Positions 24,604 to 36,373 of a stretch of DNA of 60,570 nt are shown piece after piece; the stretch's first letter is position 1, and every line of letters begins with the position of its first letter. Both the position numbers and the translations under genes were made by a program. This DNA comes from Thiohalocapsa sp. (GTDB lineage: Bacteria > Pseudomonadota > Gammaproteobacteria > Chromatiales > Chromatiaceae). Under the pieces are notes generated by a model. It was not told the DNA's origin, searched no databases, and saw only the letters and a program-made list of their open reading frames with translations. The stretch lies in NCBI GenBank assembly GCA_021736785.1, contig JAIPFF010000031.1, forward strand, positions 1 to 60,570, read 5' to 3'.

Positions 24604-24679
24604 GGGGCTGTAGCTCAGCTGGGAGAGCGTCGCGTTCGCAATGCGAAGGTCAGGGGTTCGATCCCCCTCAGCTCCACCA
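24604..24679 (+). tRNA. tRNA-Ala (anticodon CGC)
   Basis: A 76-base tRNA with encoded CCA. The acceptor stem GGGGCTG pairs with CAGCTCC, the D arm is GCTCAGCTGGGAGAGC, the anticodon stem TCGCG/TGCGA encloses loop TTCGCAA (anticodon CGC, reading GCG), and the T arm is CAGGGGTTCGATCCCCCT. The 3' 46 bases double as attL of the integrated element, which restores a complete tRNA. Confidence 0.97.
24634..24679 (+). repeat. attL: 46-bp integration core in tRNA-Ala
   Basis: From GTTCGCAATG in the anticodon loop to the terminal CCACCA, identical to 36328-36373. Flanks diverge on both sides (C versus G to the left; TTAAAC versus ATTAAA to the right). Confidence 0.95.
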
Positions 24680-24840
24680 TTAAACCCGCTGAAAAACAAA
24701 GCAAAACCCCGGCCGCATCTACCTACCAGCGAACCCCGCCAAAACTCGTAAGTGTGCAGTAAGTGCCTCATCGGGCTCATGCACTTTCGGCCCGCAGATC
24801 GCTCGGCGAAGCATTCACAACCTCAGCCCGTCGTCGGGGC

Positions 24841-24936
24841 CTCAGCGGTCTGTGGCGGCGCCGGCCGGCTCGGGTATGCCACGGGCAAGGGGCGGCGGCG
24901 TCGCGAGCGTGGCGCCAGCGTGGCGAAGCGGGCAAC
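24841..24936 (+). repeat. Imperfect direct repeat, copy 1
   Basis: CTCAGCGG, a GC-rich spacer, then TCGGGTATGCCA and a purine-rich segment ending GGCGCCAGCG. It matches 25127-25220 with scattered substitutions and short indels. Confidence 0.7.
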
Positions 24937-25126
24937 GGGAATCGGCGGCACTGGCCAGCGCTGGCGCCGTGGCCAGCATTGAGGGGGTTTGGTCGCGGCG
25001 GTCGATAGGAACCGCCTATGGGTACGCTTCGTGCTAAGGGTGCCGTAACCCGTTGTCCGGTGAACCCCGCAAAATCCGCGCCCGATAGGTGGTGCCGATG
25101 AATCGACCGGGCGCCGCCGCAACGCG

Positions 25127-25220
25127 CTCAGCGGCCCGCTACTGCGGCGGCAGGATCGGGTATGCCATGGCAAGGGGTCGGCGCCGTCGAGAGTGTGGCG
25201 CCAGCGAGGGAAAGGTGGCG
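25127..25220 (+). repeat. Imperfect direct repeat, copy 2
   Basis: Second copy of the 24841 repeat, with the same CTCAGCGG start, TCGGGTATGCCA core and GTGGCGCCAGCG end. Confidence 0.7.
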
Positions 25221-25234
25221 ATGCAACCGACCGC

Positions 25235-25470
25235 CTGGGCCAGCTTGGCGCGGGATTCGCCTGTCTTCTCAGTTCCGGAAAATTTTCCGGCACTAGAGGA
25301 TTTCAACAAGTTACGTTCGCCTGCCTCTATTTTCCGCGCCTTGGCTTCGGTCTGGGCCAGCTTGGCGCGGGCTGTGCCGTTTTCTTCAGTCCTGGAAAAT
25401 TTTCCAGAACCGTTGCGTTTCTGCGACACGTTGCCGCCAGAGGCCGATTGCCGCGCCTTGGCTTCGGTCG
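25235..25470 (+). repeat. Two tandem 117-bp repeats with 16-bp palindromes
   Basis: Units 25235-25351 and 25352-25470 share a left end CTGGGCCAGCTTGGCGCGGG and a right end CGCGCCTTGGCTTCGGT; their centres differ more. Each contains one perfect 16-bp palindrome: CCGGAAAATTTTCCGG (25275-25290) and CTGGAAAATTTTCCAG (25392-25407), spaced exactly 117 bases apart. The compensatory outer base pairs (CCGG/CCGG versus CTGG/CCAG) show that symmetry is conserved, which suggests binding sites for a dimeric protein. Confidence 0.85.
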
Positions 25471-25494
25471 GAACCCTGAGAAGGTGCCGGGCAT

Positions 25495-25519
25495 GAAAAA
25501 CCCGGCGCGGCGGCCGGGT
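25495..25519 (-). terminator. Rho-independent terminator of the element's late operon
   Basis: On the minus strand ACCCGG pairs with CCGGGT around a GC-rich 8-base loop (stem 25500-25505 with 25514-25519), followed immediately by a run of T. It lies 28 bases after the stop of the last element gene. Confidence 0.75.
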
Positions 25520-25546
25520 CGATCGGTCGGCGGATTGCCGCCGGGC

Positions 25547-34343: not shown

Positions 34344-34375
34344 GTCCGCGTGCTCCTGTGTGGATGTACGCGGAC
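34344..34375 (-). promoter_or_regulatory. Hairpin sequestering the AlpA ribosome binding site
   Basis: GTCCGCGT and ACGCGGAC form an 8-bp inverted repeat with a 16-base loop. On the minus strand the loop contains AGGAG, and the 3' arm touches the ATG of the AlpA-like gene. It may be a protein operator or an RNA switch. Confidence 0.6.
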
Positions 34376-34422
34376 AGTCTCCGTATGGAGCTAATGAGCA
34401 TCCAGGGAAACAATCGGGTGTA

Positions 34423-34899
34423 TTATTTCCCCGACTTCGGGAAGAACTGAAGATAGGTTTTCTTTACGCCGTCAGCTCCGAGAACTCCCACCTTGTCGGA
34501 GAACGCATTGTAGGTGCCGGAAACAATCTCGCAGGCGCGCTCAATCGACAGCGTCTCATCCTGCTCTAGTGTGTATGCCACGGCGCATGCAACGTCTCGG
34601 TCTCTGGCTAGCTTCCAGTAAGATCGGGTGCGCCCGGCCGATCCCTTGGTGAACCCGAAAGCCTGATCCGGTGTTTCACCTCCTTCAACACGGCACAAGC
34701 AGTCGAGAAGGTAGGATTTAACGGGTTGCGGAATATTCGAGCGCTCCACCTCGACAGAACAAACGCCAATCATGTCAACCGCGCATTCTTTGTCTCCGTC
34801 TCTGGCGCATGAGGCTATGCCCTCGATCGTCGAGCGCTTTTTGCGCTCGTAGTCCACACGCTCGAAGGCGTCGCTCCCTTTCAGTTCGCGGCTACTCAT
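34423..34899 (-). CDS. Protein of unknown function downstream of integrase
   Basis: A 158-residue, mainly helical cytoplasmic protein with lower GC than its neighbours. Seven Cys residues are scattered (SCARDGDKEC, GVCSVEV, LLDCLCRVEGG) with no clear zinc spacing. The segment PDQAFGFTKGSAGRTRSYW is basic and could contact nucleic acid. The ATG overlaps the integrase stop (ATGA), so it is made from the integrase transcript. In satellites, genes at this place are often accessory or anti-phage functions, but nothing here proves one. Confidence 0.7.
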   Translation of the reverse strand: MSSRELKGSDAFERVDYERKKRSTIEGIASCARDGDKECAVDMIGVCSVEVERSNIPQPVKSYLLDCLCRVEGGETPDQAFGFTKGSAGRTRSYWKLARDRDVACAVAYTLEQDETLSIERACEIVSGTYNAFSDKVGVLGADGVKKTYLQFFPKSGK

Positions 34900-36152
34900 G
34901 ACGCCTGCTCCATCAGCCGCGCAACGGCTGCCGCTTTGTGCTCGGGTGCGAGGTGCGCATACCGAAGGGTCATCTTCAGGTCAGAGTGCCCCAGCAGCTC
35001 GCGGACGGTGTTGAGATCCACGCCCGCCATAACGAGCCGGGACGCGAAATGGTGCCGCGTGTCGTGCCAGCGGAAATTGCTGATACACGCATCGGCGAGT
35101 AACGCGGTCCAGCCCTTTTTGATGTTGTCGAAGCGCCCGCCACCACGCCCGACGAAGACGTAACCCTCGCTACTGGTCTGATCCTGCCAAGCCTTCAGGA
35201 CGGCGGCGGCTTCGGCGTTGAGCGGTATGTGCCGGGTATTACCCGACTTGGCACCGTCGCCGCGCACGGCGAGCGTTGCGCGGTCTAGGTCGATGTCGCG
35301 CCAGTGCAGATTGAAAAGCTCGCCTCGGCGTAGCCCGGTATTCAGCGACAACAGAACCATCGGCGTAAGGTGGTCTGCGTAGGTGTCAAGCTCGGGCTTT
35401 AGCGGCTTGTCCCGAGCGGCGCGCCATGCGTTTGCGCGTGCCCGGGCGGCTTTCATGTCGTCGTCGCGTCGAGCCAGTGCGGCCCGAAGACGTTGTTCCT
35501 CGTCTCCGCTCAGGTAGCGCACCACGCCCGAGGTATCCACCTTGCCGGGCCGGACCGTCGCCAGCGGGCTACGGTCGATCAGTTCCCAATCGGCCGCCTT
35601 GGTCATCGCGGCCTTGAGGCACATAAGATCGCGGTTGCAGGTGTTGACGGTGCGCCCGGCTTGCAGTCGAGACTTGCGCCATTTCTCCACGCTCCATGCA
35701 GTGATGGCGGTCAATTCCTTGTCCAGGAATTCAGCAAACACCGAGCGGATGCGTGCGACGGTTCCGGCGCCTGTCTTTCGGTTGGCTTCGGCCCAGGGCC
35801 CATAGGTATGCGTCAGGTAGTGGTCGAGTGTCGGCGTCGTGCTGCCTTCCTCCACCTTCAGTGCGGCTTTCGGATCGCGTCCATCGGCAACGGCGCCTAG
35901 CGCGGCCTTTGCCCGGTTGCGTGCTTGGGTCGGCGTCAGGATTGCGGCGTCGCCTATCGTGATCCGGCGCCCGCGGCCTAGCTGGACAATGTAGGACGCG
36001 CGCCCGGACGGCTGCACACGCAGGATGAAGCCCTTCAGGTCTCGGTCGCGGACCTCGGTAGGCTTGGCGATCTCGCCGTCCTTGGCTTGCTTGGCTAAAC
36101 TCCGAACGAGGTTTTGCGTGATGGCGCGCGGGCCGGCGGTATCGTCTGGCAT
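34896..36152 (-). CDS. Tyrosine-recombinase integrase
   Basis: A 418-residue P4-type integrase (DUF4102 arm-binding N-terminus: RDRDLKGFILRVQPSGRASY). It has an SAM-like core-binding domain and a catalytic domain with Arg in LNTGLRRGELFNL, HxxR in WHDTRHHFASRL, a second His in LLGHSDLK and the Tyr nucleophile in LRYAHLAPEHK. It catalyses recombination between attP and the tRNA-Ala attB. ATG 36152 has GGAG eight bases upstream. It lies next to attR and is transcribed away from it. Confidence 0.95.
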   Translation of the reverse strand: MPDDTAGPRAITQNLVRSLAKQAKDGEIAKPTEVRDRDLKGFILRVQPSGRASYIVQLGRGRRITIGDAAILTPTQARNRAKAALGAVADGRDPKAALKVEEGSTTPTLDHYLTHTYGPWAEANRKTGAGTVARIRSVFAEFLDKELTAITAWSVEKWRKSRLQAGRTVNTCNRDLMCLKAAMTKAADWELIDRSPLATVRPGKVDTSGVVRYLSGDEEQRLRAALARRDDDMKAARARANAWRAARDKPLKPELDTYADHLTPMVLLSLNTGLRRGELFNLHWRDIDLDRATLAVRGDGAKSGNTRHIPLNAEAAAVLKAWQDQTSSEGYVFVGRGGGRFDNIKKGWTALLADACISNFRWHDTRHHFASRLVMAGVDLNTVRELLGHSDLKMTLRYAHLAPEHKAAAVARLMEQAS

Positions 36153-36217
36153 CGGGGCTACTCCGTTTTGCCGAGCCTGTTTTGCCGCACTTCCGGGAGT
36201 GCGTAGGTCTCGGGATT

Positions 36218-36231
36218 GCACTTATAAGTGC
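36218..36231. promoter_or_regulatory. 14-bp palindrome at the integrase promoter
   Basis: GCACTTATAAGTGC is perfectly symmetrical and lies just downstream of the proposed -10 on the minus strand, about at the expected transcription start. It shares TAAGTG with two hexamers in the left arm. It is likely an operator or integrase/AlpA site. Confidence 0.55.
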
Positions 36232-36237
36232 TAGAGT

Positions 36238-36266
36238 AGCATACGCGGGTGCATTTTAACGGACAA
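36238..36266 (-). promoter_or_regulatory. Putative sigma-70 promoter of integrase
   Basis: On the minus strand TTGTCC (36266-36261) and TATGCT (36243-36238) with a 17-base spacer, about 85 bases upstream of the integrase ATG. Confidence 0.55.
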
Positions 36267-36327
36267 CCGCGGACGCTAACACGCTGTTTTATCTGCAAGT
36301 CGCTGATATTGCTATTCGCTGGATCGG

Positions 36328-36373
36328 GTTCGCAATGCGAAGGTCAGGGGTTCGATCCCCCTCAGCTCCACCA
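36328..36373 (+). repeat. attR: 46-bp integration core
   Basis: Identical to 24634-24679, the 3' half of tRNA-Ala, but not preceded by an acceptor stem or D arm, so this copy cannot form a tRNA. Confidence 0.95.

Follow-up and report, generated by a model that had tools for sequence, protein, structure and literature searches.

A compact element in a tRNA-Ala gene of Thiohalocapsa encodes a capsid protein and a tape measure protein and is probably a phage satellite

A contig of 60,570 nucleotides from the purple sulfur bacterium Thiohalocapsa (JAIPFF010000031.1; this whole stretch is called the window) carries an element of 11,740 bp that encodes a major capsid protein (MCP) and a tape measure protein (TMP) together with genes for integration and replication. 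Is this locus what remains of a prophage, or a phage satellite that adds its own parts to the particles of a helper phage? The gene content argues for the latter, and the element is probably an integrated satellite similar to the phage-inducible chromosomal islands (PICIs) that would make chimeric particles; the genes are read directly, and from them we infer the particle, the helper and the packaging. As claimed by the initial annotation, perfect 46-bp attachment (att) repeats in tRNA-Ala enclose 11.7 kb: the first copy (24634–24679, plus strand) is the 3' part of an intact tRNA-Ala(CGC) gene (24604–24679), and the second (36328–36373, plus strand) repeats it exactly. Among 81 control pairs taken from the window outside the element (900 bp against 10.9 kb starting 2 kb further on), the longest exact direct repeat was 15 bp, with a median of 13 bp. 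All listed genes are encoded on the minus strand; their reading frames are intact and several overlap by a few bases, again as initially described, and their G+C at third codon positions (GC3) is 0.64–0.88. Next to the second repeat lies a tyrosine integrase with an Arm-DNA-binding domain (34896–36221; PF00589, E value 1.9e-28; PF13356), followed by an AlpA-like helix-turn-helix (HTH) regulator or excisionase (34143–34343; PF12728, HTH_17, E 3.7e-9) and a helicase-like DUF3987 replication protein (31662–33230; PF13148, E 4.2e-75; phrog_2373). The first gene list named the integrase, DUF3987 protein, small terminase subunit (TerS), MCP and TMP, all of which stand; its AlpA-like gene is recognised as HTH_17 only, since the Phage_AlpA model of Pfam scores 19.1 bits, under its cut-off of 21. 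A compact size range is typical of PICIs, and the element is likewise compact. It also has the integrase and att repeats by which Gram-negative PICIs are described in PMC6092414; these PICIs further carry a regulator of the AlpA or MerR type near int, a role for which the HTH_17 gene, given its AlpA score, is only a candidate.

The MCP (382 aa, 28314–29462) is of the Mu gpT type (PF25209, Phage_capsid_4, E 6.2e-12) and is devoid of a protease or scaffold part, aligning to the C-terminal part only of the protease-capsid families phrog_4523 and phrog_133. It has 10 matches among 50,697 phage records at E values up to 1 (best 8e-9), one of which is annotated as Mu-like gpT. Moreover, a profile of its family (A7, which includes three prophage rows) matches the solved capsid proteins 9jod, 8rkc and 8rkx at E 4e-12 to 4e-11, the last two being gpT-domain proteins. 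The TMP (780 aa, 25765–28107) matches PF10145 (E 8.3e-34) and phrog_28 (E 1.3e-101), a family found in its own genome inside the element only; it matches 401 phage records at E 1e-5, in no case across 80% of its length, and the best phage matches listed (Wolbachia phage WO, AcaML1 and others) cover residues 4–412. Directly before the MCP gene is the small gene p82 (29462–29710), with homologues in the elements of genomes G005 and G513, and further upstream are p153 (142 aa from its ATG, 29744–30172), which marks the neighbourhood of virion genes in related satellites, and TerS (30162–30698; phrog_57, E 5.5e-23), with two matches among the phage records at E up to 1. In the 14 open reading frames (ORFs) scanned against Pfam and PHROGs at E 0.1 (for the TMP, the best 25 of 35 PHROGs), no portal, large terminase subunit (TerL) or lysis family was matched, nor any tail family other than the TMP, in agreement with the initial annotation. 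The portal, TerL, tail and lysis modules of a temperate phage are not found in this set, the TMP being the sole tail gene. P4-like satellites are recognised by Psu/Sid and the P4 alpha protein, and neither gave a Pfam or PHROGs match among these ORFs.

How related capsid proteins are embedded elsewhere bears on the question directly. A search with the single MCP found matches in 5 of 190 relatives, its own genome included, and a two-sequence profile (A1) had hits in 11 genomes out of 369 from the class and in 11 out of 210 from the family, own included in both, giving 21 genomes in total. Aside from the element itself, 11 of the loci are satellite-like (G005, G513, G532, G483, G554, G042, G242, G249, G344, G361 and G379), with p153 before the MCP gene and neither portal nor TerL seen on the sequence examined. 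Five others are prophages (G069, G106, G179, G332 and G354), in which the related MCP is part of a fused protease-MCP of 670–840 aa and the portal belongs to PF05136 (G106, G332, G354) or phrog_10963 (G069, G179). By the initial annotation, homologous elements that regularly had portal, TerL and tail genes at this locus would have marked the element as a deleted prophage; made at sites other than this tRNA gene, the comparison favours a satellite, on the basis of these 11 loci against the five prophages with portals. Also, a p153 profile (A6, nine rows) matches all 11 satellite-like loci, 8 of which went into building it; the independent ones are the loci L038 (E 3e-8), L039 (E 4e-6) and L045 (E 7e-10). 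From the five prophage loci, p153 is absent at E 0.01.

An integrase is present on the stretch in 8 of the 11 satellite-like loci (not in L035, L037 and L044). Contig ends cut G513 upstream of the replication gene, G249 at p153 and G532 inside the MCP gene, so that the gene sets of these three are only partly visible. Identity of the MCP to the 10 loci aligned of the 11 is 19–43%, and the closest relative is the G005 element from the same genus, with a 44% identical MCP. This element contains an integrase, a gene in the position of p158 (the gene that adjoins the integrase), an AlpA-like gene, a replication gene, TerS, p153, p82 and the MCP gene, and ends there; that of G513 has a DUF3987 protein, TerS (phrog_57, E 3e-7), p153, p82 and the MCP. 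TerS of phrog_57 is also matched in L037, L038, L039 (weakly, E 1e-4), L043 and L095. The MCP matches in G419 and G423 were left out of the locus classes. Those in G545 and G544 look spurious, the first being antisense to a chromosomal gene and the second having the same open-frame length and query range. In L037 (G483:C1), part of one element is apparently present twice on the 15-kb contig, in nearly identical copies, and the MCP gene seems to have a disrupted frame; G483 is still counted among the 11.

A direct-repeat test on 17 loci returned an exact repeat of 41–58 bp enclosing the element in 11 of them, in 10 cases within a tRNA gene (Phe, Pro twice, Leu three times, Met, Gly, Glu and Val) and in L089 with no tRNA called. 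The repeats of L041 (25 bp), L084 (22 bp) and L092 (16 bp) are shorter, and none was found in L013, L086 and L093. The 12 repeat-bounded relatives, L041 included, measure 9.5–15.1 kb. When the window is added, an MCP is encoded by 9 of 13, of the gpT type in the window, L038, L042, L043, L039, L045 and L041 (L043 retains the protease part) and of the lambda-E type (phrog_29) in L096 and L089, a fraction that is biased because six of these relatives were found by their MCP. A TMP is encoded by 4 of 13, namely the window, L041 (best family phrog_24), L038 (phrog_27166) and L096 (phrog_2854), with several families common to the TMPs of L038 and L041. The combination of MCP and TMP without TerL or portal is repeated in three divergent elements (L038, L096 and L041), among which the MCP is of two types and the best-matching TMP family varies. 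For example, L096 (G392:C3, 3063–16204; 13.1 kb, bounded by tRNA-Met) encodes a lambda-type MCP, a maturation protease, a decoration protein and a TMP, and TerL and portal were not found in it. Its protease matches phrog_53 (E 3e-108) and also phrog_21, a family named portal (E 3e-22, profile positions 557–845 of 1362); as this second match is partial and weaker, it is read as the protease part of a fusion family. The absence of TerL and portal is firm for the window and rests, for the other elements with MCP and TMP, on inspection or on a reckoning of ORFs of at least 250 aa: in all four, each non-overlapping ORF of that size on the gene strand is an integrase, a replication/recombination gene, a protease, an MCP or a TMP, with shorter and antisense ORFs scanned in part.

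A satellite with both MCP and TMP is not new as such, since E. coli satellites listed in 2023 carry an MCP, a decoration protein, a TMP and a baseplate part (PMC10448857), which weakens the initial claim that satellites rarely keep both shell and tape measure. These putative satellites share with the element an att site mostly in a tRNA gene, an integrase, an MCP, a putative TMP and the lack of TerL and of an autonomous phage set. However, they have decoration and baseplate genes and RepA, and are described as being without terminase genes, protease, AlpA and Pri-Rep, whereas the element has TerS, an AlpA-like HTH gene and a DUF3987 protein; this contrast is one of described gene content. The PLE (PICI-like element) of Vibrio cholerae also encodes its own TMP, which is built into helper tails, phage and PLE tails differing by 10 nm, and deletion of its tmp lowers transduction by 96–99.9% (PMC12987554). 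For PLE the TMP has been shown in chimeric tails, whereas here the likeness is one of genes alone. Moreover, PLE differs in having a tail assembly chaperone (TAC) and a baseplate hub (neither matched among the 14 ORFs), in particles with the ICP1 capsid protein and in its dependence on lytic ICP1. Putative tmp genes are also named in PLE-like elements and capsid-forming PICIs (cf-PICIs; PMC12987554, Extended Data Fig. 10 legend).

Regarding the capsid, Ccm of SaPIbov5 occupies pentamers and redirects the capsid shape (PMC8569155), has a shorter modelled delta domain and forms no capsids alone (PMC5052747). The element resembles it in encoding an HK97-fold capsid homologue with a shortened N-terminal scaffold part; SaPIbov5 differs in being a cos-type Gram-positive PICI, with no TMP mentioned in the available parts of these papers. 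Two Gram-negative PICIs bear an MCP, EcCICFT073 and PmCI172 (PMC6092414). PmCI172 has a Mu-like helper, with which it makes small capsids; it also encodes an MCP homologue, the role of which was left aside in that study. EcCICFT073 is alike in its order of integrase, HTH gene and primase followed by capsid and decoration protein; it differs in having no annotated TMP, and its ORFs match no gpT-type MCP, p153 or TerS profile (its MCP and the one of L089 share 26% identity). The cf-PICIs also have their own MCP and TerS and differ by portal, TerL, protease and head-tail connectors (PMC10690885, PMC10448857), for which no match was found among the 14 ORFs. A replication module with an origin, another PICI feature, is predicted from the DUF3987 gene and inverted iterons. 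Nonetheless, the primase-type Pri-Rep of Gram-negative PICIs (PMC6092414) was not found, only DUF3987 and helicase matches being returned by Pfam and PHROGs, and for this reason the element is not classed as a canonical PICI.

If the element is a satellite of this kind, multiplication of a helper phage would lead the AlpA-like switch to start excision and replication, and the satellite TerS would recruit the helper large terminase to satellite DNA. The MCP, as the capsid part of a protease-capsid fusion, would join or replace the helper capsid protein and thereby set a capsid suited to about 12 kb. In turn, the TMP would replace the helper ruler, so that helper tail tubes are built to satellite length, and tails of this length may escape tail-directed defence. 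The helper would supply the portal, the large terminase, the remaining tail parts and lysis. The earlier wording that the element supplies the shell may be too strong, because the MCP has no protease or scaffold part; co-assembly with the helper capsid protein, as for Ccm, appears at least as likely. Each of these steps has a precedent, in Ccm for the capsid, in PLE for the TMP and chimeric tails (2026) and in the E. coli satellites with MCP and TMP.

Several observations weigh against this reading. The G005 element has no TMP and none is seen in that of G513 before the next chromosomal genes, so the TMP is not a fixed part of the lineage. Beside the TMP no TAC was found, unlike in PLE and in L038, where one (phrog_1442) accompanies the TMP. 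Structure predictions from two-sequence alignments are not confident, with a mean predicted local distance difference test score (pLDDT) of 34 for the MCP and 60 for p153. Two scans of viral contigs with short exact MCP patterns found no relative, and such patterns in genome contigs found none in the first scan and one in the second, negatives that are weak because short exact patterns were required. As for a resident helper, nothing in the own genome (96 contigs) matched the portal families PF05136 and PF04860 or the TerL families PF05876 and PF03237, the four that the helper search covered. Finally, removal of the capsid or decoration gene of EcCICFT073 (c1499, c1500) did not end interference with lambda, and lambda DNA under this island was all phage-sized (PMC6092414), which speaks against capsid redirection as a general rule. 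Since deletion of c1499 or c1500 left the interference unexplained, a satellite MCP need not redirect capsids.

The same two virion genes would have another meaning if they were weapons, the MCP as a source of dominant-negative capsid subunits and the TMP as a ruler that poisons helper assembly, with the satellite riding in helper-made particles or protecting the cell. The absence of a protease or scaffold part in the MCP fits this idea, as do the facts that Ccm, itself unable to build a capsid on its own, blocks its helper (PMC5052747) and that tail assembly is a known target of defence (PMC12987554). However, both frames are open and intact, the PLE TMP is incorporated into particles (PMC12987554), and the L096 set of protease, decoration protein, MCP and TMP goes beyond what a decoy would need; we therefore regard weapons as an unlikely explanation. 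A decayed prophage that has lost its motor, portal and most tail genes would account for MCP and TMP being phage genes with relatives in full phages, and in G005, from the same genus, virion genes are fewer still. Against such a history stand the perfect att repeats and the 11 related loci in which p153 precedes the MCP and no portal or TerL is seen, as well as the absence of p153 from all five prophage loci. The DUF3987 protein is 58% identical to its counterpart in the G513 element, yet it has only two matches among the 50,697 phage records (at E 1e-5). Decay was rejected as the main reading because the layout recurs and the att repeats are intact, and is improbable; the initial argument from gene overlaps and intact frames now finds company in both.

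The remaining candidate, a reduced cf-PICI that lost portal and TerL, draws on the common themes of integrase, AlpA-like regulator, replication protein, TerS and MCP. Also, putative tmp genes are on record for some cf-PICIs (PMC12987554, Extended Data Fig. 10 legend), and TerL is present in some p153 loci (L090 and L091), so cassettes vary. None of the portal, TerL, protease and connector genes of cf-PICIs is found in the element, however, and such an origin is very improbable.

What appears to be new, then, is the union of MCP and TMP with TerS, an AlpA-like gene and a DUF3987 protein, its recurrence in Gammaproteobacteria and the p153 marker. A literature search over open papers and few preprints listed no paper recognised as treating such an element in Chromatiaceae or the p153 group. 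An article on viruses of purple sulfur bacteria mentions Thiohalocapsa prophages and, in its available part, no satellites (PMC11041744), and AH14b is a satellite without capsid or terminase genes (PMC4936722). How satellites favour their own parts over those of the helper in particles is a mechanism called unknown in the 2026 PLE paper (PMC12987554). An element with both capsid protein and ruler, together with relatives in which only one was found, offers a natural series for the role of each part. Moreover, partial virion sets in tRNA genes, which readily pass for prophage remnants, can be satellites that look complete, and p153 is a marker gene for finding them.

Matches to p153 extend to 20 of 210 family genomes and 12 of 369 class genomes, own included. 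A further 19 p153 places were fetched, G141, G446 and G353 (E 8e-5 to 5e-4) being left out, and an integrase was found in 25 of the resulting 30 loci (11 via MCP, 19 via p153), a count that is partly by construction because 17 of the 18 integrases in the profile come from these loci. That of L080 is on the opposite strand with a weaker match, and none was found in L035, L037, L044, L081 and L090. Like a p153 satellite, the element combines integrase, replication gene, TerS, p153 and a partial virion cassette between att repeats. The cassettes of the bounded relatives differ: L095 (G151:C34, 4932–15269; 10.3 kb, bounded by tRNA-Leu) has an integrase, p153, TerS and an 840-aa lambda-J-like central tail fibre (tail tip), with no MCP or capsid gene seen; L089 also has protease and decoration matches, L043 a neck/tail-completion match (phrog_27) and L098 TerL with a scaffold match. 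No virion gene was seen among the part of the ORFs scanned in L087 and L097. Outside the 13, L081 has a protease and a TMP, L083 an MCP of another family and L094 TerL. A broad Gammaproteobacteria satellite group marked by p153, whose interchangeable cassettes (capsid alone, shell and tape measure, tape measure and protease, lambda-J-like tail tip, terminase motor) would each swap one helper part while p153, common to all, would steer the assembly of the helper towards parts from the satellite, is a tentative idea that we consider more doubtful than the satellite reading of the element itself. In L090 (G484:C150) and L091 (G561:C177), p153 lies directly beside a large terminase gene (phrog_15), so the group also holds motor-carrying elements. 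In a PDB profile search p153 had just two matches (E 0.002 and 0.43), both to proteins designed de novo, and these were taken as an effect of composition.

The origin-like site of the initial annotation proved real as an array of inverted 9-bp iterons (31437–31663): steps of GTTGCGACA form two inverted blocks, 31437–31467 and 31558–31588, with an A+T-rich stretch between them. The array sits between the replication gene and the genes p85 (31160–31417; no Pfam or PHROGs match) and p126 (30783–31163), a small protein with several Cys and a 38% identical homologue in the G520 locus L087. The G513 homologue of the DUF3987 protein carries a primase-type N-terminal part. Of 13 related loci checked, 4 have exact tandem 9-mers directly behind the replication gene: L097 has several, L093 three copies, L045 an inverted pair and L035 only a two-copy run, the replication gene being a primase in L097 and L045. 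As two-copy runs are also present elsewhere in related loci and no chance control was made, this recurrence of iteron-like 9-mers is only suggestive. Towards the integrase, the element has a gene with an uncertain start and no Pfam or PHROGs match (33230–33853), p123 (33775–34146), without assigned function and with a sole PHROGs match at E 0.094, and p158 (34423–34899), which has weak homologues by profile beside the integrases of L036 and L045. The AlpA-like gene has a 60% identical counterpart in the p153 locus L091.

At the integrase-distal end, the layout first given had to be amended, as the TMP gene is followed by an ORF of 70 codons with no assigned function (25547–25759) and then, before the att repeat, by some 0.9 kb that is rich in repeats and has no gene assigned to it. 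Within it, positions 24841–25410 contain direct repeats of 93 nt and 59 nt and two GGAAAATTTTCC palindromes, and are a candidate packaging or control site. By eye, a G+C-rich repeat-like stretch also follows the MCP gene in the G005 element.

The G+C content of the element (66.5%) is close to that of its flanks (65.3% and 67.1%), so composition gives no age. No empty site could be shown, because close matches to the flanking NUDIX gene are lacking in the rest of the genus: its own match has E 6.5e-115, and among 10 genomes the matches in 8 others are no better than E 4.5e-5. Among the relatives, L013 (G005), L041 (G344) and L094 (G543) appear by eye to lie beside a low-molecular-weight phosphatase gene and not a tRNA gene, and L035 (G513) and L042 (G379), likewise by eye, lie close to pheT, the att repeat of L042 being in tRNA-Pro.

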